From positions 31,414-63,881 of the forward strand of contig DYJF01000001.1 in assembly GCA_020723205.1 (NCBI GenBank): 32,468 nt of DNA. Reading direction: 5' to 3'. Every line of letters starts with the position of its first letter. Position 1 is the first letter of the stretch. Positions 4,744 to 31,918 of this stretch are shown one piece after another. This DNA is from Bdellovibrio sp. GTDB taxonomy: Bacteria; UBA10199; 2-02-FULL-44-16; DYJF01. A program made the translations under genes and the position numbers. Below the pieces are notes generated by a model. That model searched no databases and had not been told where the DNA came from. It was given only the letters and a program-made list of their open reading frames with translations.

Positions 4744-4819
4744 CTCTCCCCCTTTGTAAGGGGAAGTTGGAGGGGGTAGATCTACCCTCCCTGTCCATCC
4801 CTTACAAAGGGAAGGAACC
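4744..4819. repeat. Composite palindromic repeat, family A full copy (A2)
   Basis: TCTCCCCCTTTGTAAGGGGAAGTTGGAGGGGGTAGATCTACCCTCCCTGTCCATCCCTTACAAAGGGAAGGAACC, centred on GTAGATCTAC. Confidence 0.85.
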
Positions 4820-13000: not shown

Positions 13001-13359
13001 TAGCCCTTATGGGTCTTGACGCGGAGACGGGGGTGTTCATGCTCTTGTTCCTGGACCTTTCCCATGACGAGGCAAGACGTGAAGGAAAAATGAAAAACGG
13101 ATCGGACCTGGTCGAAGCGATCGTCCATGGCGCGGTAAAGCGCGTGCGCCCGAAGATAATGACGGTCACTTGTCTGTTCATGGGCCTACTCCCGATCATG
13201 TGGTCCATCGGCACCGGCGCCGACATGATGAAGCGAGTTGCCGCGCCGATGATCGGAGGCCTTGCGACATCATTCATTATGGAACTTTTGGTGTATCCGG
13301 CGATATATTATTTGTGGAAGAAACGCGAGATCGGAGGACCCCATGGCCAACATACTTGA
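10093..13359 (+). CDS. cusA: CusA-like heavy-metal RND efflux pump (Cu/Ag type)
   Basis: 1088 aa. YVYIIYEDGTDIYWARSRTLEYLSKILPRLPEGV, GVLVDGAIIEVENAYK, and MPIKARIDMLSTGIRTPVGIKILG (the CusA RxxMLSTG segment). ATGA overlap with the adaptor stop. Confidence 0.94.
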   Translation: MTMIGKIIEFSARNRFTVLILTAALVVIGVWCLKNVDLDAIPDLSDTQVIIYSRWDRSPDIIEDQVTYPIVTAMLGSPKVKAIRGFSDFGFSYVYIIYEDGTDIYWARSRTLEYLSKILPRLPEGVKTELGPDATSLGWVFQYALVDESGKNGLSDLRSYQDWYLRYYLQSVPGVAEVATVGGFVRQYQVNIDPNKLLAHNIPIDKVVDALRKGNNDVGGRLVEMSGREYMVRGRGYARSVEDIEKIGVGVDPKNGTPITIKQLGKVELGPDIRRGVADLDGKGDAVGGIVVMRYGENALDVIDRVKEKFKEIASSLPDGVKIVTTYDRSELILRSIDTLKDTLIEELIIVSAVILFFLWHIPSAAVPIITIPVSVLLAFIPFYFMGLTANIMSLAGIAISIGVLVDGAIIEVENAYKKLQLWRDSGRKGDFREVRLKALKEVGPSVFFSLLVVAVAFLPIFTLVDQEGRLFKPLAYSKNFAMAIAAILAITLDPAVRMLFTRMDFRKFRWKWLTWLYNHAMVGNYYAEEKHPVSRRLFAIYEPACRWVLKRPKKVIIAAAILFLTAIPPFIFLGSEFMPPLNEGTILYMPTTLPGISVTEASKLLQAQDQVLKSFPEVETVFGKAGRAETATDPAPFSMMETTVVLKPESQWREKKRWFSWMPEHNRFYLKRIWRDRITWDDLIAEMDKKMQFPGVANAWTMPIKARIDMLSTGIRTPVGIKILGPDFAELERIGKDLEMILKDVSGTRSVFAERAAGGYFLDFDLKRDELARYGLSVDDAEMVVISAIGGENITTTIEGRERYPVNVRYQRELRDDVSKLSRVLVSTPSGTQIPISQIADIHLSYGPSMIRDENGMVASYVFVDTAGRDIGGYVSEAKKAVEKTLKLPAGYALSWSGQYENMLRVRERLGLILPLTLFIIFMLLYMNTKSAVKAGIVFLAVPFSAIGAVWLLYILGYHMSIAVWVGLIALMGLDAETGVFMLLFLDLSHDEARREGKMKNGSDLVEAIVHGAVKRVRPKIMTVTCLFMGLLPIMWSIGTGADMMKRVAAPMIGGLATSFIMELLVYPAIYYLWKKREIGGPHGQHT

Positions 13360-14431
13360 TACAGCATTGCAGTTCATGTCCGGTTCACTTGCGGCCGCAT
13401 GGCAGGTCCTTTTGGATGCCAGCATATTCATACTGTTCGGATTCGTCATTGCGGCGCTCATCAGGGCGTTCCTCTCGAGCGAGCAGATCGTCAGATATAT
13501 GGGCGGCAATAATTTCCGCTCCGTCCTTCTGGCGGCGCTCTTCGGCGTCCCGCTCCCTCTGTGTTCCTGCGGCGTCGTGCCCACCGCGATGGCGCTTAGA
13601 AAGCAGGGCGCCTCAAAGGCGGCGACGGTCTCGTTCCTCATAACGACGCCGGAATCGAGCATCGACTCGATAGCCATCACCTATGCGCTGATAGACCCGA
13701 TAATGACGGTATTCAGGCCGATCGCCGCGTTCATCACGGGGTTTGTGGCCGGAATAGCGGAGATATTCTTTGGAAAGAAGGAGACAGAAAAAGTTACGGC
13801 GGAAATTCCATGTCCGCATTGTGCCCCCTCTCCCCACCCCTCCCCCTCGAGGGGGGAGGGTGAGGGAGGGGGTGAACATACACACTCCCTCGCGGATCGT
13901 CTGAGCTCCGGCCTGCGTTTCGCCTTCGTTGAATTATTCACCGACATCAGCCGCTGGTTCCTGATAGGAATGCTGATCGCGGGGATCATCACGTTTGCCG
14001 TGCCCGCAAGCTTCATCGAGCAGCATCTGGGAAGCGGCTGGGCCTCGATGCTCATCATGCTTGCCGTGGGCCTGCCTCTCTACGTCTGCGCTACGGCATC
14101 GACCCCAATCGCCGCGGCGCTCATCCTCAAGGGAATGAGCCCGGGCGCGGCGCTCGTGTTTTTGCTCACAGGGCCGGCCACGAACGCGGCTTCGTTCACC
14201 GTGCTGATCAAAATGCTGGGACTGCGAACGGCGATCATCTATATACTGTCCATTGCGGTCTGCGCGGTCATTTTGGGCATGCTCTTGAATCAGATCTACT
14301 TCATGCTGGGAATTGATATCAGGGTCGCCGTGGGCCACGCGCACGAAATGATTCCCGTGTGGCTCAAGTGGGCGACAGCGGTTCCACTTACAGCCGCGAT
14401 GGTCTGGGCCGCTGTCAGGAAGAAAAATTAA
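13343..14431 (+). CDS. SO_0444-type Cu/Zn efflux permease (UPF0718/ArsP-like)
   Basis: MANILDTALQFMSGSLAAAWQVLLDASIFILFGFVIAALI..., GVPLPLCSCGVVPTAMALRKQGASKAATVSFLITTPESSIDS. RBS GGAGG before ATG 13343. Overlaps the cusA end by 17 bp. Confidence 0.8.
   Translation: MANILDTALQFMSGSLAAAWQVLLDASIFILFGFVIAALIRAFLSSEQIVRYMGGNNFRSVLLAALFGVPLPLCSCGVVPTAMALRKQGASKAATVSFLITTPESSIDSIAITYALIDPIMTVFRPIAAFITGFVAGIAEIFFGKKETEKVTAEIPCPHCAPSPHPSPSRGEGEGGGEHTHSLADRLSSGLRFAFVELFTDISRWFLIGMLIAGIITFAVPASFIEQHLGSGWASMLIMLAVGLPLYVCATASTPIAAALILKGMSPGAALVFLLTGPATNAASFTVLIKMLGLRTAIIYILSIAVCAVILGMLLNQIYFMLGIDIRVAVGHAHEMIPVWLKWATAVPLTAAMVWAAVRKKN
13824..13872. repeat. G/C-run palindromic repeat inserted in frame in the permease CDS
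   Basis: CCCCCTCTCCCCACCCCTCCCCCTCGAGGGGGGAGGGTGAGGGAGGGGG. Encodes APSPHPSPSRGEGEGGG in the cytoplasmic-linker-like region. Confidence 0.85.
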
Positions 14432-14948: not shown

Positions 14949-16303
14949 GAGCGCTGCTCCAGAATTGCCTTCTCAACGTCCGCTATCTTCGATTGCTCGC
15001 CCAGCCAAAACTCCTTGCCCCTTTGGGCGCGGAGCTCTTCCACGGTTTTCCCCTGCTGTTCGACCCAAGTGTAATATTTAAGATTCGCCCATGAATCTTG
15101 CGCAAGCTTGTCCCCTTCGCGTATCCAGTCGGCGTCGGCGCCATGGAATATCGCCTTGATTCGGCGGGAGGCCTCGTCCCTGTCCATCTTGCCAAACTGT
15201 TTTGTCAGATCCGCGAGCACGCTGTAGTAACGGTCGAGGTTGTCCGTGGCGACGGTAAAAATCACATCTCCCTTTCCCAATTTGTAATGCTTCGCAGTCT
15301 TTATGGCGCCCAGTATGTTGCAGATGCACGATATTCCGAAGAGCGTAGAGAAAGATTCGAGCTCGGGTATCACCTTCCAGCCCGGCTCCTCCGCCACGGC
15401 CTGCATGCCCTTCTTGCAGGACACGTCGTCGATGCACATGAGCGCGTCCATGTTGTCCGTGTTGTGTATCCATGTGGCGTGCTTGTCGCCGATCCCCTGA
15501 ATATCGTGGTCGCCGAAACCATTGTTGTAAAGCGTCGGGCACTGGACCGGTTCGAGACCGACAACGCGGCAATCCTTATGGACCTGCTTTATGCGGTCGC
15601 CGGCGGCTATCGTTCCCGCAGAGCCCATGGCGGAACAGAACGCCGCGAAGTTCCTGGCGCCCTTCGTTCTTTTAAGCTCTTCGAAGAGCTCGAGCACGGA
15701 GTTTCCCGTGACATAGTAATGAAAGCGGTAGTTGCCGAATTCCGCGAACTGGTTGACGATGACCGTGTCCTTCTCGCGCGCCAGTTCGTGCGTCTTGTCG
15801 TAGATCTCCTTCACGTTGCTTTCGCAACCGGGGGTCTTGATGTACTCCGCGCCGTACCATTTAATCTTCTCGAACCTCTCCTGACTCATCCTCTCTGGCA
15901 GGATCACGAGGGAATCGTATCCCATTCTGGGGCCTACATACGCGCCCCCGATCCCGTAGTTGCCGGTTGAAGGCCATACCAAGCGGTGTTTTCCGGGCGT
16001 TATCGTGCCCATGACCTGTCTTTCAATAGTGCACGAGTAGGTCGCGCCGACCTTGTGGCTTCCCGTCGGAAAATATTTGCCGATTATGACGACTATCTCG
16101 GCGTCCACGTTCGTGAGCGCTTTGGGAAGAACGACGTGGCGCACCTTGTTCTCTTTGTCCTTCCACGTGATATTGTAGAGGTTTATCGGATCGAGAGGGG
16201 ATGTCTCGAGCACCTCTATCGCCCTCTTCCTCGTTTCATGGTGAATCTTTTCCGGATTCAGCATCTCTTCGAACGTCGGACCATAAACCAATGTGGATTT
16301 CAT
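14942..16303 (-). CDS. PLP-dependent beta-family (fold type II) lyase, cysteine synthase/threonine synthase superfamily
   Basis: 453 aa. PTGSHKVGATYSCTIERQV (PLP-lysine region), VWPSTGNYGIGGAYVGPRMGY, CSAMGSAGTIAAGDRIK. RBS GGAAGGAGAAGTT-ATG. Confidence 0.8.
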   Translation of the reverse strand: MKSTLVYGPTFEEMLNPEKIHHETRKRAIEVLETSPLDPINLYNITWKDKENKVRHVVLPKALTNVDAEIVVIIGKYFPTGSHKVGATYSCTIERQVMGTITPGKHRLVWPSTGNYGIGGAYVGPRMGYDSLVILPERMSQERFEKIKWYGAEYIKTPGCESNVKEIYDKTHELAREKDTVIVNQFAEFGNYRFHYYVTGNSVLELFEELKRTKGARNFAAFCSAMGSAGTIAAGDRIKQVHKDCRVVGLEPVQCPTLYNNGFGDHDIQGIGDKHATWIHNTDNMDALMCIDDVSCKKGMQAVAEEPGWKVIPELESFSTLFGISCICNILGAIKTAKHYKLGKGDVIFTVATDNLDRYYSVLADLTKQFGKMDRDEASRRIKAIFHGADADWIREGDKLAQDSWANLKYYTWVEQQGKTVEELRAQRGKEFWLGEQSKIADVEKAILEQRSC

Positions 16304-16313
16304 AACTTCTCCT

Positions 16314-16337
16314 TCCCCCTCCTTTGTAAGGGGAGGC
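16314..16337. repeat. Family A half-copy hairpin (A4)
   Basis: TTCCCCCTCCTTTGTAAGGGGAGG in the 39-bp gap between the ssnA-like and PLP-lyase genes. Confidence 0.75.
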
Positions 16338-23889: not shown

Positions 23890-24630
23890 TTATCTCAAAA
23901 ATTTCCTGATCATGTGTATCGTCGTGTCCCATCCGAGCCGCGCGATCGCCTCGGTGAGGGGGATGTTCTTGGGACACGCTTTTTCGCAGTTCTGCGCGTT
24001 GCTGCAGTCGCCAAGGCCGCCGACTCCCATGAGAGCGTCGAGGCGCTTTTCCTTCTCGAGCGCGCCGATCGGATGCGTGTTGAACATGAACGCCTGTCCC
24101 ATCACGAACGCGCCCATGAAAGGGGACCTTGAGTTGTACTGCGGACAGGCCTCGCAGCAGCATCCGCAGACCATGCATCTGGAGAAGTGATAGGCCTTCT
24201 GTTGATCGGCCGGCGCCATGCGCGGGCCCGGACCCAGATCGAAATAGCCGTCGACCGTCACCCATGCGCCCGCTTCCTTGAGCGCCTCGAACATCTTGGA
24301 GCGGTCCACGCGCAGGTCGCGAACGACCGGAAACTTCGTCATCGGCTCAAGGGTTATCGGCTGCTCCAGCTGGTCGACAAGCGCGCTGCACGATTGCCTG
24401 ACCTTGCCGTTCACGATCATCGTGCACGAACCGCAGACCTCTTCGAGGCAGGAGCACTCCCAGACGACGGGAGTCGTGGGCAGCCCCTCGACGGTCACGG
24501 GATCGTTCTGGATCGCCTGCAGGCACATCACGACGTTCATCTTGGGCCCGTAGGGAACCGCAAACTCTTCCCAATAGGGCAGCTCGTCGGGCCCGTCCTG
24601 ACGCTTTATTTTTAATCTGATCTCGTCCAT
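23890..24630 (-). CDS. sdhB: Succinate dehydrogenase/fumarate reductase iron-sulfur subunit
   Basis: CSCLEEVCGSCTMIVNGKVRQSCSALVDQL and CMVCGCCCEACPQYN, CSNAQNCEKACPKNIPLTEAIARLG. Confidence 0.94.
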   Translation of the reverse strand: MDEIRLKIKRQDGPDELPYWEEFAVPYGPKMNVVMCLQAIQNDPVTVEGLPTTPVVWECSCLEEVCGSCTMIVNGKVRQSCSALVDQLEQPITLEPMTKFPVVRDLRVDRSKMFEALKEAGAWVTVDGYFDLGPGPRMAPADQQKAYHFSRCMVCGCCCEACPQYNSRSPFMGAFVMGQAFMFNTHPIGALEKEKRLDALMGVGGLGDCSNAQNCEKACPKNIPLTEAIARLGWDTTIHMIRKFLR

Positions 24631-24640
24631 AAGAGCTGCC

Positions 24641-24719
24641 GTTCCCCTCCTTTGTAAGGAGGGGTTAGGGGAGGTAGATCTACCCCACCCTCACCCTCCC
24701 CTTACAAAGGGGAGGAAAA
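24641..24719. repeat. Composite palindromic repeat, family A full copy (A3) between sdhA and sdhB
   Basis: GTTCCCCTCCTTTGTAAGGAGGGGTTAGGGGAGGTAGATCTACCCCACCCTCACCCTCCCCTTACAAAGGGGAGGAAAA: near-perfect dyad centred on GTAGATCTAC. Confidence 0.88.
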
Positions 24720-26468
24720 CTAATGGGCTACATCGTATCTCCTCGCCACCGGTTTGATATCCAGGATCTCCACCTTCTCGCTGTAATCGAACTTAGGCCC
24801 TTCAGGGGAGTACTCGCATTTCGTCACGCACAGCCATTTTTCGTCGTCGCGTTTGGGCGTCTCCGGCTTATAATGGGAGCCCCTGCTCTCCTCGCGGCCC
24901 AGCGCGCCCAGCACGATAAGACGCGCAAGATCGAACTGGTTCTCGAGCGTCCTCATGAAAAAGATCTCGTCGTTGGCGAACCCGCCGGTGTCGCTGATCT
25001 TGGAGCGGGCGAACCTCTCTTTAATCTCCGATATCTTCGCGTCGAGCTCTTTTAAGTTCTTGTTGAACCTCACTATCGTCGCATGGTCGGTGAGCCATTT
25101 CGAAAGTTCCTGCTTCAAGAGGTGAGGGTTCTCCGGCCCGTCCATGCCTATGAATTTTTTGTTGATGTCGTCCTGCCGGCCCTTCTCTTCCTCGAGCAGG
25201 GAAGCGGGGAGCGCATCCGCCGTCTTGGTGAGCCCCTTTGCGTACTCGACCGCAGCGGGGCCGGCGACCGTCCCGCTGTAGATCGCCGACAGTAGCGAAT
25301 TGGCTCCCAAGCGGTTCGCGCCGTGATACTGGTAATCGCACTCGCCGGCCGCAAAGAGCCCCTTCATGCTTGTCCGATGGTCGCCGTCCACCCAGATGCC
25401 GCCCATCGAATAGTGCACGGCGGGAAAGACCTTCATCGGAACTTTTCTGGGATCGTCGCCCACGAACTTCTCGTACAGCTCCAAGATGCCTTCAAGCCGT
25501 TCGGCGAGCGCCTCGTGATCGAGATGAGTGAGATCGAGATACACAATATCCTCGCCGTCCACGCCCAGCTTCATCTCTTTGACGACCTTCCAGATGGCGC
25601 GCGCGGCGATATCTCTGGGCACCGTGTTGCCGTATGCGGGATACCACTCCTCCAGAAAATACCACGGTTTGCCGTCCCTTGGCACCCACACCCTTCCGCC
25701 CTCGCCCCTCGCAGCTTCGCTTATGAGCCGGCACTTGTCGGTGCCCGGGATCGCCGTCGGATGGAACTGGACGAACTCGGGGTTCGCAAAGAAAGCGCCG
25801 CGCTTGTAGACCTCGGTCGCGGCGTAACCGGTGCAGTGTGTCGAGTTGGTGCAGGTCCCGTAGACGTGATTGAAACCGCCCGTGCACATTATGACCGCGT
25901 CAGCGGCGAAAGCGCGCGTCTCCATTGTGTCCTTGTCTGTCGCTGTGATGCCGCGACAAACTCCCTCTCCGTCGATCATAAGCGACGCGAATTCGAAGTT
26001 CTCGAACTTTCTGACAGCGCCCGCCGCTTCATGCCGTCTGATCTGCTCGTCCAGCGCGTACATCAGCTGCTGGCCCGTCGTTGCGCCCGAAAAACACGTG
26101 CGGCGCTTTTTCACGCCGCCGAAGAGGCGCAGGTCCAAAAGCCCCTCCTTCGTGCGGTTGAACATGACGCCCATGCGGTCGAACATGTAAATGAGGCCGG
26201 GCGCCGCGACGCACATCTTCTTCACGACACTCTGGTGCGCAAGAAAATCTCCGCCGTAGACGGTGTCGTACGTGTGGGCCTCTACCGAGTCACCCTCTCC
26301 CTTGGTGTTTAAGGCCGCGTTGATTCCGCCCTGCGCGCAGACCGAATGCGAGCGGCGCACGGGAACAACCGAAAAGATGGAGACGTCCGCTCCTTTTTCG
26401 GCGGCCTTGAGCGCGGACATGAGCCCCGACAGCCCCCCGCCGACCACTATGATCCTAGGTTTCGCCAT
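24720..26468 (-). CDS. sdhA: Succinate dehydrogenase/fumarate reductase flavoprotein subunit
   Basis: IIVVGGGLSGLMSALKAAEKGADVSIFS, RSHSVCAQGGINAALNTKGEGDS, CTGGFNHVYGTCTNSTHCTG, HYSMGGIWVDGDHRTSMKGLFAAGECDYQYHGANRLGANSLLSAIYSG. Confidence 0.96.
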   Translation of the reverse strand: MAKPRIIVVGGGLSGLMSALKAAEKGADVSIFSVVPVRRSHSVCAQGGINAALNTKGEGDSVEAHTYDTVYGGDFLAHQSVVKKMCVAAPGLIYMFDRMGVMFNRTKEGLLDLRLFGGVKKRRTCFSGATTGQQLMYALDEQIRRHEAAGAVRKFENFEFASLMIDGEGVCRGITATDKDTMETRAFAADAVIMCTGGFNHVYGTCTNSTHCTGYAATEVYKRGAFFANPEFVQFHPTAIPGTDKCRLISEAARGEGGRVWVPRDGKPWYFLEEWYPAYGNTVPRDIAARAIWKVVKEMKLGVDGEDIVYLDLTHLDHEALAERLEGILELYEKFVGDDPRKVPMKVFPAVHYSMGGIWVDGDHRTSMKGLFAAGECDYQYHGANRLGANSLLSAIYSGTVAGPAAVEYAKGLTKTADALPASLLEEEKGRQDDINKKFIGMDGPENPHLLKQELSKWLTDHATIVRFNKNLKELDAKISEIKERFARSKISDTGGFANDEIFFMRTLENQFDLARLIVLGALGREESRGSHYKPETPKRDDEKWLCVTKCEYSPEGPKFDYSEKVEILDIKPVARRYDVAH

Positions 26469-26475
26469 ATTCCCA

Positions 26476-26539
26476 CCGTTCGTGCCAAGCCGTGTCGAAG
26501 CGCGAACCGTTCACCCTTCGACAAGCTCAGATCGAACGG
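26476..26539. repeat. Palindromic repeat, family B, between sdhC and sdhA
   Basis: CCGTTCGTGCCAAGCCGTGTCGAAGCGCGAACCGTTCACCCTTCGACAAGCTCAGATCGAACGG. Shares GTTC-(N)CCTTCG-CAAGCTCAG-CGAACGG with the element at 29083-29157. Confidence 0.7.
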
Positions 26540-26546
26540 TAAAGAG

Positions 26547-27164
26547 TTATCCTGTGAACGCCAATAATATCCTCAAGCCCCACGCTCCCATAAAAAACGT
26601 TATAACCCATGTCGCCATCGTCATCGCGAGCTGGGACTTTTTGCTAGCCGTTACCCCCCACGTCATCATCGCGGTTGCAAATCCGTTCGCGAGATGGAAG
26701 ACCGCGCTCATGATGCCAACGATATAGAACGCCTTGACCCACGCCGGTCCGAAATGCTGCTGCATGTACGCGAATGTCACGTGCTTTCCAGTGAAAAAGG
26801 CGTGCAGACGGGTGTTCCAGACATGCCACACGACGAAGGCAAGCGCCGTAAAACCCGTGACCCTCTGCAGGATATACATCCAGTTACGATAGTACGTGTA
26901 AGGCACGAGGTTCACGGAACCCCTGTAGATGATTATGAGGCCTAAGAGCGTATGGACGAGAAGAGGGACGGCGATCAGGCCTATCTCCATGAATGCGATG
27001 AGCGGAAAGCCCTGCGAGGCGCCGACGAACAGATTGAACGTCTCCGCCCCGCCGAAGACGAAGGAATTGAACGTGAAGTGAACAACAAGAAACGCGCCGA
27101 GCGGAAATATCCCGAATAGAGATTGCAATCTTTTGAGGAGAAAATAATCGTAGCGGCCCGCCAT
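26547..27164 (-). CDS. sdhC: Succinate dehydrogenase/fumarate reductase cytochrome b subunit (type B, single polypeptide)
   Basis: 205 aa multi-TM. FPLGAFLVVHFTFNSFVFGG, PLLVHTLLGLIIIYRGSVN, RVTGFTALAFVVWHVWNTRL, VFHLANGFATAMMTWGVT, with spaced heme-ligand-type His. Directly upstream of sdhA. Confidence 0.88.
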   Translation of the reverse strand: MAGRYDYFLLKRLQSLFGIFPLGAFLVVHFTFNSFVFGGAETFNLFVGASQGFPLIAFMEIGLIAVPLLVHTLLGLIIIYRGSVNLVPYTYYRNWMYILQRVTGFTALAFVVWHVWNTRLHAFFTGKHVTFAYMQQHFGPAWVKAFYIVGIMSAVFHLANGFATAMMTWGVTASKKSQLAMTMATWVITFFMGAWGLRILLAFTG

Positions 27165-27243
27165 CGCTCCCCCAAATTGTCACGTAAACGCGCCAAGTTA
27201 CGTCCAATCTGTATACAAACGGCTATGGCGGAAGTCAATTAAC

Positions 27244-28797
27244 TTATGTTATAGGCCCCGACTCGCGCACCTTGGGCGAGGCCTTCGCGGCGTACTGCTC
27301 GAAATTCTTCTGGAAACGCGCCGCGAGGTCCTTGGCCTTTGCGTCGTAGGCCGCCTTGTCCTTCCACGTGTTGCGCGTGTTGAGAATGTCGCGCGGAACG
27401 TCGGGGCACGCCTCCGGCACGAGTATCCTAAAGACGTTGTCCGGCGAACGCGGCTGATCGTTCAACACGCCGGACAGCGCCGCGTTCAGAAGCTTTCTCG
27501 TAAGATTTATATCCATCCGTTTTCCCACGCCGTACGGGCCGCCGCTCCAGCCGGTGTTCACCATCCAGCAACGGGCCTTGTGCTTCGCCAGACGCTCGCC
27601 CAAAAGGTTCGCGTAGGTAGTGGGATGCAGCGGCAGGAACGGCGAGCCGAAACAGGTGGAGAAAGTCTCCTTCGGTTCCACTATGCCCGCCTCCGTGCCG
27701 GCCACCTTTGCAGTATAACCGGACAGAAAATGATACATCGCCATCTCGGGCGTGAGTTCCGCGATCGGGGGAAGTACGCCGAAGGCGTCGCAGGTGAGAA
27801 ACACGATGTTCTTCGGCTGGCCTCCCATGCCCGGTATCACGCAGTTGGGGATGTATTCCACCGGATAGGTCGCGCGCGTGTTCTCCGTTACGCTCCCGTC
27901 GTCGTAATCGATGGCGCGTGTGGCTTCGTCAACGACGACGTTCTCAAGTACAGAGCCGAAGCGTATCGCGTCCCATATCTGCGGCTCCCTCGTGCGGTCG
28001 AGCTTTATCACCTTCGCGTAGCAACCGCCCTCGAAGTTGAAAATGCCGTTATCGGACCAGCCGTGTTCGTCGTCGCCGATGAGGCGGCGGGACGGATCCG
28101 CGGAGAGCGTGGTCTTTCCCGTGCCCGACAGGCCGAAGAAGAGCGCAGTGTCCCCGTCCTTTCCGACGTTCGCGGAACAGTGCATCGGGAAGACGTTCCG
28201 GCGCGGCATAAGAAAATTCATGACGGAGAAGATCGCTTTTTTTATCTCCCCGCCATAGTGGGATCCGATTATGAGAATGATGTTCCGCTCAAGATCAACG
28301 CCGATGAAGACCTCGGTATCCGTCCTGTCAGTCTTCGGATCGGCCGTGAGCTCGCACGCATTGATGACAGTGAACTGCGGCTCATATGACGCAAATTCCT
28401 TATCTGTCGGCCTCAGGAACAGGGTCTTTGCAAAGAGCGCGTGCCACGCCTTCTCCGCTACGACCCGCACGCTAAGCCGGTATGAAGGGTCGGCACCGGC
28501 GAAGCCGTCCGAAATGAAAATATCTCTCTTTGAAAGATATTCTTTCGCCTTCGAAAGGAGCTTATCGAACGACTCCTGCGATATCGGCCTGTTTACCTTC
28601 CCCCACCAGAGTTCGTCCTTCGTGTTCTTGCTCTCCACCACGAAGCGGTCGGTGGGCGAGCGGCCGGTCCGCGCGCCGGTCCTCACGACAAGCGCGCCGT
28701 TGGCGGCAAGCTTCCCCTCCCCACGGGCGAGCGCTTTCTCAACCAGCTCCGCCACCGAAAGATTTCTGTGAACTTTACCTGAAGTCCGGACGTCCAT
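27244..28797 (-). CDS. pckA: ATP-dependent phosphoenolpyruvate carboxykinase
   Basis: 517 aa. GARTGRSPTDRFVV, IGSHYGGEIKKAIFSVMNFLMPRR, FFGLSGTGKTTLSADPSRRLIGDDEHGWSDNGIFNFEGGCYAK, NTGWSGGPYGVGKRMDI. Confidence 0.97.
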   Translation of the reverse strand: MDVRTSGKVHRNLSVAELVEKALARGEGKLAANGALVVRTGARTGRSPTDRFVVESKNTKDELWWGKVNRPISQESFDKLLSKAKEYLSKRDIFISDGFAGADPSYRLSVRVVAEKAWHALFAKTLFLRPTDKEFASYEPQFTVINACELTADPKTDRTDTEVFIGVDLERNIILIIGSHYGGEIKKAIFSVMNFLMPRRNVFPMHCSANVGKDGDTALFFGLSGTGKTTLSADPSRRLIGDDEHGWSDNGIFNFEGGCYAKVIKLDRTREPQIWDAIRFGSVLENVVVDEATRAIDYDDGSVTENTRATYPVEYIPNCVIPGMGGQPKNIVFLTCDAFGVLPPIAELTPEMAMYHFLSGYTAKVAGTEAGIVEPKETFSTCFGSPFLPLHPTTYANLLGERLAKHKARCWMVNTGWSGGPYGVGKRMDINLTRKLLNAALSGVLNDQPRSPDNVFRILVPEACPDVPRDILNTRNTWKDKAAYDAKAKDLAARFQKNFEQYAAKASPKVRESGPIT

Positions 28798-28821
28798 TTT
28801 TCATCCTTTCATTTTTAAATT

Positions 28822-28908
28822 CCGCCGCGGAGACGCAGAGAAAACAAATATTTTTTTAAAACAAAAGGATTTTTTGTATTTCTCTGTGTCTCTGCGCCTC
28901 TGCGGCAG
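28822..28908. repeat. Large inverted repeat, family C
   Basis: CCGCCGCGGAGACGCAGAGAAA...TTTCTCTGTGTCTCTGCGCCTCTGCGGCAG: arms complementary around an AT-rich centre. Confidence 0.8.
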
Positions 28909-28913
28909 ATTTT

Positions 28914-29459
28914 CTATAATGATTTGCGCTTTTGTTCAAGTACTTCGTCGAACGCGGGTTTACCGTCGCGGCGCACGAATTTGAAGCCGCAATCGGGATG
29001 CGTCTTCGGATGTCCGTAGAGGCGCTGACGCGGATAGAACCTGCAAATGCGGTGACGAAAATGATAGACACGACAACTTACGGCCCGTTCACCCTGAGCG
29101 GGCAATGTTCGTCCTTCGTCAAGCTCAGGACGAACGGAGTGCGAGTCGAAGGGTTCCACGAGATATCTGCACGTATAAACCAACAGCTTTCCCTCGCGCC
29201 CCTGATACTGAAAATTGAACAGAACCTTGTGCCACCTGCTCAAGAAATCGGCGAAACGACCGTTCTTCGCGATGTAATCCGGCATCTCGAGAGCCAAAAG
29301 CTGGCAGCACCGTCCGCACCGCTTGCACGCGCCGACACGGACATATTCCGTCCTATTCCGGACGCCTATGAGCCAGTCGGCCGCGGTCTCCATTGAATAG
29401 AAAAGAAAACCGATGCAGAACGCGAGCGCCCGGACGGAAAATAGAAGTATCGCGGCCAT
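28914..29459 (-). CDS. YkgJ-like CxxCxxCC cysteine-cluster protein (Zn/Fe-S binding family) with in-frame repeat insertion
   Basis: CKRCGRCCQLLALEMPDYI, KLLVYTCRYLVE-[insert]-SCRVYHFRHRICRFYPRQRL, HPDCGFKFVRR. Confidence 0.8.
   Translation of the reverse strand: MAAILLFSVRALAFCIGFLFYSMETAADWLIGVRNRTEYVRVGACKRCGRCCQLLALEMPDYIAKNGRFADFLSRWHKVLFNFQYQGREGKLLVYTCRYLVEPFDSHSVRPELDEGRTLPAQGERAVSCRVYHFRHRICRFYPRQRLYGHPKTHPDCGFKFVRRDGKPAFDEVLEQKRKSL
29083..29157. repeat. Palindromic repeat, family B, inside the YkgJ-like CDS
   Basis: CACCCTGAGCGGGCAATGTTCGTCCTTCGTCAAGCTCAGGACGAACGGAGTGCGAGTCGAAGGG. GTTCGTCCT...AGGACGAAC dyad. Encodes PFDSHSVRPELDEGRTLPAQGE. Confidence 0.85.
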
Positions 29460-29467
29460 TTGACCCG

Positions 29468-31918
29468 CTAGATCGCCAACTCCGCCTCTTCCTTTTCCTC
29501 TCTGGTGAGGCGTTTCTTCACGATGTTCCCTCCGCCCGTCTTCGGCGGCGTTCTCGCGAAGAGTTTTACCTTCGAGCTGTCGAGCACGAGCGCCTCCTTG
29601 AGAACCTCGTCCATGTGTTCAACCTTGACTATATCGAGGTCCTTCAAGATCTTTTTCGGAATGTCCTTCAGATCCTTCTCGTTCTCCTTGGGAATGAGGA
29701 TCTTCTTTATCTTGCCCCTGTGCGCTGCAAGTATCTTCTCCTTCAAGCCCCCGATGGGGAGAATGCGGCCGCGGAGCGTTATCTCGCCCGTCATGGCGAC
29801 GTCCCTGCGCACCGGAACCTTAAGAAGCGCCGAGGATATGGCCGTCGCCATCGTGATGCCGGCGGAGGGTCCGTCCTTCGGGATGGCGCCTTCGGGCACG
29901 TGAATGTGAATGTCCACTTTTTGATAGAATTCGCGTCCCAGACCCAGCGTCTCCGCGCGCGAGCGAACGTAGCTCATCGCCGCCTGCGCCGATTCCTGCA
30001 TGACGTCGCCCAGTTTCCCTGTGATGGTCAGCTTGCCGCGCCCCGGCATGACCGAGACTTCGGTCGTCAAAAGCTCGCCGCCGACCTCGGTCCACGCCAG
30101 TCCCGTGCACAGGCCGATCTGATCGACGTCCTCCGCGATGCCGAAGTGGAACTTGGGAACGCCCAGATACTGCGCGACCTTTTTGGGCGTGATGCGCACG
30201 AACTTGTCCTTCTTTTCCGACTTCGCGACCTCGCGCGCGACCTTCCTTGAAACGGAAGCTATCTCGCGCTCCAGGTTCCTGACCCCCGCCTCTCTCGTGT
30301 AACGGCGGATGACCATCTTGAGGGCCGACTCCGTGAAAGCAATGTGCTTCTCCATGAGCCCGTTGGCCTCGCGCTGTTTAAGCACGAGATAGCGTTTCGC
30401 TATCTCAAGTTTTTCCACTTCCGTGTAGCCCGGAATGCGGATGATCTCCATCCTGTCCTGAAGCGGCATGGGGATCGCAGGAAGCGTGTTCGCGGTCGTG
30501 ATGAACATCACGTGCGAGAGATCGTAATCGAGGTCCAGATAATGGTCGCTGAACGTGTGATTCTGCTCCGGGTCAAGCACTTCGAGAAGCGCCGCCGACG
30601 GGTCGCCCCTGAAGTCCATGCTCATCTTGTCCACTTCGTCCAAGAGGAACACCGGATTGTTCGAGCCGACCTTCTTCAAGGACTGGATGACCTTGCCCGG
30701 AAGCGCGCCGATGTACGTCCTTCTGTGGCCGCGGATCTCCGCCTCGTCGCGCACGCCGCCCAGAGAGAGCCGGATGAACTTGCGTCCCATCGCCCGCGCT
30801 ATCGAGCGCCCGAGCGACGTCTTTCCGACGCCCGGCGGGCCCACCAGGCACAGTATCGGTCCCTTCATCTTGTCGACGAGCGAACGAACGGCCAGGTATT
30901 CGATGATGCGCTCCTTGGGCTGCTCAAGACCGTAGTGGTCCTCGTCCAATATCTTCTCCGCCTCATCGATGTCCATCTTGTCCTTGGTCATTTCGTCCCA
31001 AGGGAGGGAAAGTATCCAGTCTATGTAATTGCGCACGACGGTCGCCTCCGCCGACATCGGCGACATCATCTTGAGCTTCTTTATCTCCTTCATCACGCGG
31101 TCGCGCGCCTCGGCGGAGAGCTTTTTCTTCTTCGTCTTCTCCTCGAGCTCCGCAATCTCGCTCTTGAACTCGTCGCGCTCTCCCAGCTCCTTCTGGATCG
31201 CCTGCATCTGCTCGTTTAAGTAATACTCGCGCTGCGTCTTCTCCATCTGCTTTTTAACGCGGGTCCTGATGCGCCGCTCGACCTGCAATATCTCGATCTC
31301 CGACTGCATGAGCGAAAGCAGTTTCTCAAGGCGCTCCGCCGACGACGTTATCTCGAGGATGTTCTGCTTATCGGGGAGCTTCAGCGCCAGATGCGCGACT
31401 ATCGTGTCGGCAAGCCGCGAGGGGTCCTCGATGGTTGAGACCGACGCCAGCATCTCCGGCGGTATCCTGCGGTTGAGCTTCACATACTGTTCGAAGGTGG
31501 ACTTGACGCCGCGCATGAGCGCTTCCGTCTCTATCGTAACTTCGCGCTCCTCCTGTATCGGTTCAACCTCTACCAAGAAGAAGTTCGCGTTCGGTATGTA
31601 CTGATGGACCCGGGCGCGGCTCTTGCCTTCGACCAGGACCTTCACCGTGCCGTCAGGCAGCCGCAGAAGCTGTATGATCGCGGCCAGCGTCCCGATGTTA
31701 TAGATGTCCTCCTCTTTGGGATCGTTCGTCTTCGCGTTTATCTGCGCGGAAAGGAGTATGTCCTTCTCCTTCCCCATGGCCTCTTCGAGCGCCGCGATGG
31801 ATTTCTCCCGCCCGACGAAAAGGGGGACCACCATGTGCGGAAAGACGACGATGTCACGCAGAGGTAAAAGCGGCACCAGAACTCGTTCTGCGACCGGCCT
31901 GTGGGTGTGTTCGGGCAT
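29468..31918 (-). CDS. lon: ATP-dependent protease Lon
   Basis: 816 aa. [76 protein letters not shown] (catalytic Ser) and [13 protein letters not shown]. Confidence 0.98.

Follow-up and report, generated by a model that had tools for sequence, protein, structure and literature searches.

Palindromic repeats read in frame within protein genes have previously been known mainly from Rickettsia and from a survey of REP sequences. The Rickettsia palindromic elements (RPEs; Ogata et al. 2000) are Rickettsia-specific, 105–146 bp in length, and occur both in intergenic DNA and as in-frame fusions within conserved protein genes (reviewed in PMC2229807); the product of an RPE-bearing gmk gene has been demonstrated to be both translated and active (PMC2229807). 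REPs of the GTAG and CGTC types, including intragenic examples (Di Nocera et al. 2013, PMC3733652), are 20–40 bp palindromes with covarying stems, which form head-to-head dimers whose conserved ends face outwards, occur inside other palindromes and in some cases lie wholly within ORFs. Bacterial MITEs and other small mobile sequences (ERIC, RU, Correia; PMC2229807) are small, non-autonomous, palindromic and sometimes intragenic.

A repeat in a draft genome of Bdellovibrio sp. (1.75 Mb in 85 contigs, 83% complete) shares with RPEs the palindromic form and the placement both between genes and in frame within them, and with REPs and MITEs the features just listed; like the RPEs it is a multicopy palindrome with in-frame copies in conserved genes that are absent from the orthologues. 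Its unit of about 33 nt and its composite of 73 nt lie below the RPE size range, and it differs from GTAG/CGTC REPs (PMC3733652) in that its conserved end is CCGTTC, neither GTAG nor CGTC. Unlike CGTC-type REPs it has neither a CCA tail nor an AT-start stem, and unlike the GTAG REP/RAYT system it has no detected partner in this draft in the form of a Y1 (tyrosine) transposase with repeat copies on either side. As the GTAG/CGTC tag is absent, the repeat is treated here as one that works like RPEs and intragenic REPs, and is not filed as a member of either REP superfamily.

The repeat was encountered in a window of 32,468 nucleotides (the whole stretch of DNA analysed), where it lies within a gene for a cysteine-cluster protein and between two other genes. 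The features of the window are as follows:

28914..29459, minus strand: insert-bearing gene of a CxxCxxCC/YkgJ-like cysteine-cluster protein, an open frame of 181 aa with orthologues
29085..29157, minus strand: composite (nested) palindromic repeat of 73 nt, translated in frame to about PFDSHSVRPELDEGRTLPAQGER, supported by copy alignment and by the composite order at other sites
29107-29135: palindrome GTTCGTCCTTCGTCAAGCTCAGGACGAAC in the DNA of the YkgJ-like loop, a 29-mer with multiple genome copies
29107..29137, minus strand: inner unit, inverted with respect to the outer one, reading CCGTTCGTCCTGAGCTTGACGAAGGACGAAC on the minus strand with stem arms of 9 nt (38-unit alignment)
29085..29099, plus strand: left arm of the outer split unit, CCGTTCACCCTGAGC, fitting the conserved half CCGTTC..CCTGAGC
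29143..29157, plus strand: right arm of the outer split unit, GAGTCGAAGGGTTCC, fitting GAGTCGAAGG of other composite copies
26476..26539, no strand assigned: intergenic two-unit copy between an SdhA/FrdA-like gene (ending at 26468) and a Sdh_cyt gene (starting at 26547)
13262-14431, plus strand: ArsP_1/SO_0444-family efflux permease gene with PSPHPSPSRGEGEGGG in frame, from a different, GC-rich repeat

The 181-codon frame stays open across the insert, and the local order in the product is YTCRYLVE, PFDSHSVRPELDEGRTLPAQGERAVS, CRVYHFRHRICRFYPR, with the loop PFDSHSVRPELDEGRTLPAQGERAVS lying between CRYLVE and CRVYHFRHR. Alignments with order-, class- and domain-level homologues show the family motifs CxxCGxCC, C, CRxYPR and CGF to be present and all Cys positions of the family to be kept. 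The Pfam match to PF03692 (CxxCxxCC) is weak (16.7 bits, below the cut-off of 23), and the matched stretch, residues 44–145, includes the insert. The AlphaFold model of the protein, with a mean pLDDT of 44, is too poor for placement of the loop. A PEPCK gene adjoins the YkgJ-like gene here and in two order-level relatives; between the two genes in this genome, at 28816-28914, lies a long inverted repeat (CCGCCGCGGAGACGCAGAGAAA / TTTCTCTGTGTCTCTGCGCCTCTGCGGC), either another repeat family or a terminator-like hairpin.

Comparison with orthologues confirms the expansion of the loop that had been proposed from this sequence. The nearest comparison genomes belong to the same order: orthologues in four such relatives (41–47% identity) are free of the repeat and have 7–10 residues between CRYxxE and C(R/S)IYPFRHR, and class-level relatives have about 3 residues in the same loop. 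Here the loop has 26 residues, 16 to 19 more than in the order-level relatives and about 23 more than in the shorter form; a non-repeat loop of equal length, which would have argued against an insertion, is not what the homologues show. The repeat codes for nearly all 26 residues, AVS excepted, which means that the loop was either very short beforehand or has been replaced. The exact insertion point is uncertain, with a net gain of 18 aa by alignment as against up to 25 aa coded by the repeat, since the closest comparison, at the level of the order, supplies no same-genus or same-family empty site.

The insert extends beyond the 29-nt dyad originally described, since its outer arms belong to the same repeat family: an inverted inner unit splits an outer unit, giving a nested composite. 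The arrangement CCTGAGC-N-[inverted unit]-N-GAGTCGAAGG recurs at C13 (inside the RNase R gene, in frame), C26:21579 and C36, and the composite is found intergenically at other sites. As copies share arms that extend beyond the inner unit, the composite has been copied as one block. At C26:21571-21636 and at C16 it sits in turn inside another palindrome, CGTC-type REP-like (TCATTGCGAG...CGAAGCAATCC), a repeat within a repeat. The original prediction that the dyad is related to the element at 26476-26539 also holds, the latter being a two-unit copy of the same family with 78% identity over 41 nt to the YkgJ copy. Folded as a single RNA strand, the insert region gave a z-score of only -1.3, and structure in the mRNA is therefore not claimed; an Rfam search of window positions 26000-30000 returned weak sub-threshold matches only, none of them on the palindromic repeat.

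Genome-wide, the repeat was surveyed by pattern searches, with reversed patterns as controls, and through a partial sample of 286 kb, which covers about 16% of the genome and takes in the window. It is spread about forty times through the genome: allowing up to 3 mismatches, the 29-mer palindrome has 10 matches and its control none, and at up to 2 mismatches the 17-nt core has 36 across the 1.75-Mb draft, where its control has 1. An initial, looser unit search was discarded, its matches being mostly due to chance. Alignment of 38 units gives the consensus CCGTTC-NN-CCT-GAGC-nn-GTCGA-AGG-NN-GAAC, in which the left end, CCGTTC, is almost invariant, the right end decays, and the base context beside CCGTTC is variable (CGTC, CATC, CGCC, CACC, CGTG). 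Units are frequently arranged as dimers or nested trimers, among them head-to-head dimers of the form CCGTTC...GAAC(GG)TTC...GAACGG with the tag end outside (e.g. L047, L050, L063). Changes in the stem are compensatory (CCT/AGG, GCT/AGC, GGT/ACC, GTT/AAC; GT/AC, AT/AT, GC/GC), with 44 double-change cells, where shuffles give 13.0 and slid-partner controls no more than 7. Because this set of 38 had been filtered for pairing, a second test was made on 27 copies picked by core sequence alone, in which the flanking variable dinucleotides formed 41 Watson–Crick pairs out of 54, compared with 24.5 in shuffles (p about 5e-5). Within the 286-kb sample, three of six true units lie inside genes (TonB-like, RNase R, YkgJ-like), and four further apparent units were rejected as chance matches. 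Set against a crude coding fraction of 0.91, this makes units richer between genes than expected by chance; intragenic units are nonetheless not rare, though the numbers are small.

Beyond the YkgJ-like gene, at least seven conserved genes carry copies in frame: nadA, cysS, hutU, rnr, mazG, and the TonB-like and DUF362-ferredoxin genes. The peptides they encode include:

nadA: VHPELVEG
cysS: RPFALSLSKGE
DUF362-ferredoxin gene: SVHAELVEAQAVHPSTCSG, between two 4Fe-4S motifs
TonB-like gene: VRPELVEGRAVRVSTSSTRT
hutU: VRGELVEPRTNRPLDSSFDVLRTNG

By alignment the segments in NadA and CysS are inserts relative to the orthologues; the copy in NadA is truncated, with a net gain of about 4 residues, and the cysS gene that carries the insert is the sole full-length CysS match in the draft. 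The insert in HutU is clean, residues 6–158 and 188–579 aligning to residues 8–160 and 159–549 of the urocanase structure 1x87_A, so that the flanking segments meet at chain residues 158–161. Alignment of the rnr product to the RNase R structure 8cdu_C reveals additional segments coded by three different repeat families. At this locus (L154, around C13:7543; minus-strand ORF 1-2115 in locus coordinates) the in-frame segments come from the present palindrome, an LPLCKGE/PPYKGGE palindrome and a QDTRRKTQDTRRET-type repeat, families unrelated to one another. An unrelated repeat is also present in frame in a second gene of the window, as had been noted from the sequence: PSPHPSPSRGEGEGGG in the ArsP_1 permease. 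Two further observations concern other sites. At L048 (C74:33002-33030) the TGA of CCTGAGC is the stop codon of a xanthine-dehydrogenase-like gene, which also has an in-frame LPLCKGE/PPLQREG segment, and the window holds a second palindrome family, CTCCTTTGTAAGGAG, intergenic at 462-534, 4749-4817, 16303-16336 and 24628-24717 and partly in facing pairs.

Outside this genome the distribution of the repeat is patchy. The strict pattern GTTCNNCCTGAGC...TCGAAGGNNGAAC occurs in 7 of 290 genomes, this one included, with no control matches; two of the six others fall within the same order or class and four outside the class. Seven plasmid records carry the repeat, those named being from Sphingobium, Novosphingobium, Variovorax, Comamonas and Methylobacter, and at the two plasmid sites inspected, one on a large Comamonas plasmid and one on a large Sphingobium plasmid, it is intergenic. 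Carriage by viruses was considered and rejected, phage records yielding zero matches and viral contigs 13 among 2.9 million, with one copy each. Neither the core sequence nor RPELVEG was found in a search of the literature. Y1 transposase (PF01797) was not found in the draft, 83% complete as it is, and is present in 48 of 60 relatives of the class, such that co-occurrence of repeat and Y1 genes is uninformative and absence from this draft does not decide for or against a Y1-driven origin. In G270, a repeat-rich genome of another phylum, one copy is close to a Y1 ORF; in a class-level relative (G023:C44, L110) a palindrome copy codes for the C terminus of a truncated Y1-transposase ORF (NGSSFDRLRTNE). 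A link to RAYTs by co-occurrence was accordingly rejected, given how widespread Y1 genes are in the class and that one adjacency proved to be a copy within a truncated Y1 ORF.

The reading preferred here, with a probability of roughly 0.88, is that a small, non-autonomous REP/RPE-like palindrome has spread in this genome and was probably inserted once into the loop between CRY and C-x-YxFRHR of the YkgJ-like protein. It builds on a multicopy covarying family, a composite shared between sites, an insertion relative to orthologues and a frame that has been kept. Mobilisation would have been in trans, by a transposase of Y1/RAYT or other type that is now absent or missing from the draft, and a single event would have placed the repeat in the loop. 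The consensus unit, as read from the sequence, is free of stops in five of its six frames, so that survival in frame is easy, and a copy of suitable length would yield an uninterrupted, polar, loop-like peptide. Selection would then remove copies that break frames or domains, leaving only frame-keeping insertions in tolerant surface loops, which is where the copies in enzymes are found, in frame; the enlarged YkgJ-like protein would still be expressed and functional.

Were the gene instead decaying or silent, its frame could have stayed open after the insertion by chance, and the sub-threshold Pfam score would be in keeping with such a fate. The full-length open frame, the conserved Cys motifs and the identity to orthologues argue against it, however, as do the PEPCK neighbourhood conserved in two relatives and inserts of the same kind in genes such as cysS that are likely essential, and decay is considered improbable. 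A misassembly, in which the repeat was misjoined into the gene, is a natural concern in a fragmented draft of metagenome type, the more so as some copies sit at contig ends (C32:13, C73:37543), yet it is very improbable: ordinary reads are longer than the 73-nt repeat, the frame is preserved on both sides of the insert, and eight independent host genes are alike in this respect.

The remaining alternative concerns the value of the insert to its host. The original prediction had left it open whether the genome tolerates or recruits such insertions, and recruitment would mean that the repeat-coded loop is useful to the YkgJ-like protein, as an interaction surface or in regulation, and that insertion was favoured and not merely tolerated. 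Five of the eight host genes (YkgJ, NadA, TonB-like, DUF362 and HutU) use the same frame, V-R/H-x-E-L-V/D-E-G/A/P, and the Cys ligands and the remainder of the YkgJ-like protein are conserved, both of which would suit recruitment. The frame bias derives, however, from eight genes only and may reflect solubility; the host genes are functionally unrelated and several different repeat families insert likewise, which fits tolerance, and a benefit to the protein is judged improbable. Repeat-free relatives, a multicopy family and at least seven further host genes thus uphold the tolerance half of the prediction, which is preferred to recruitment.

Insertion of an in-frame palindrome into the YkgJ-like gene joins a wider pattern in this genome, in which at least eight conserved genes, including those for a tRNA synthetase, RNase R, urocanase and quinolinate synthase, hold in-frame repeats. 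As several of these products are well-assayed enzymes, tolerance is directly testable. There is also a caution for annotation, in that peptides resembling RPELVEG, FDKLRTNG or PFALSLSKGE in predicted proteins flag inserted repeat DNA and not a functional motif. More tentatively, and with rather more doubt than confidence, the CCGTTC-tagged family, with its near-identical core across phyla, may move between lineages and repeatedly add in-frame segments to housekeeping enzymes, joined in this genome by several unrelated families. If this were true, in-frame repeat insertion would be a general means by which proteins change, reaching well beyond the Rickettsiales.
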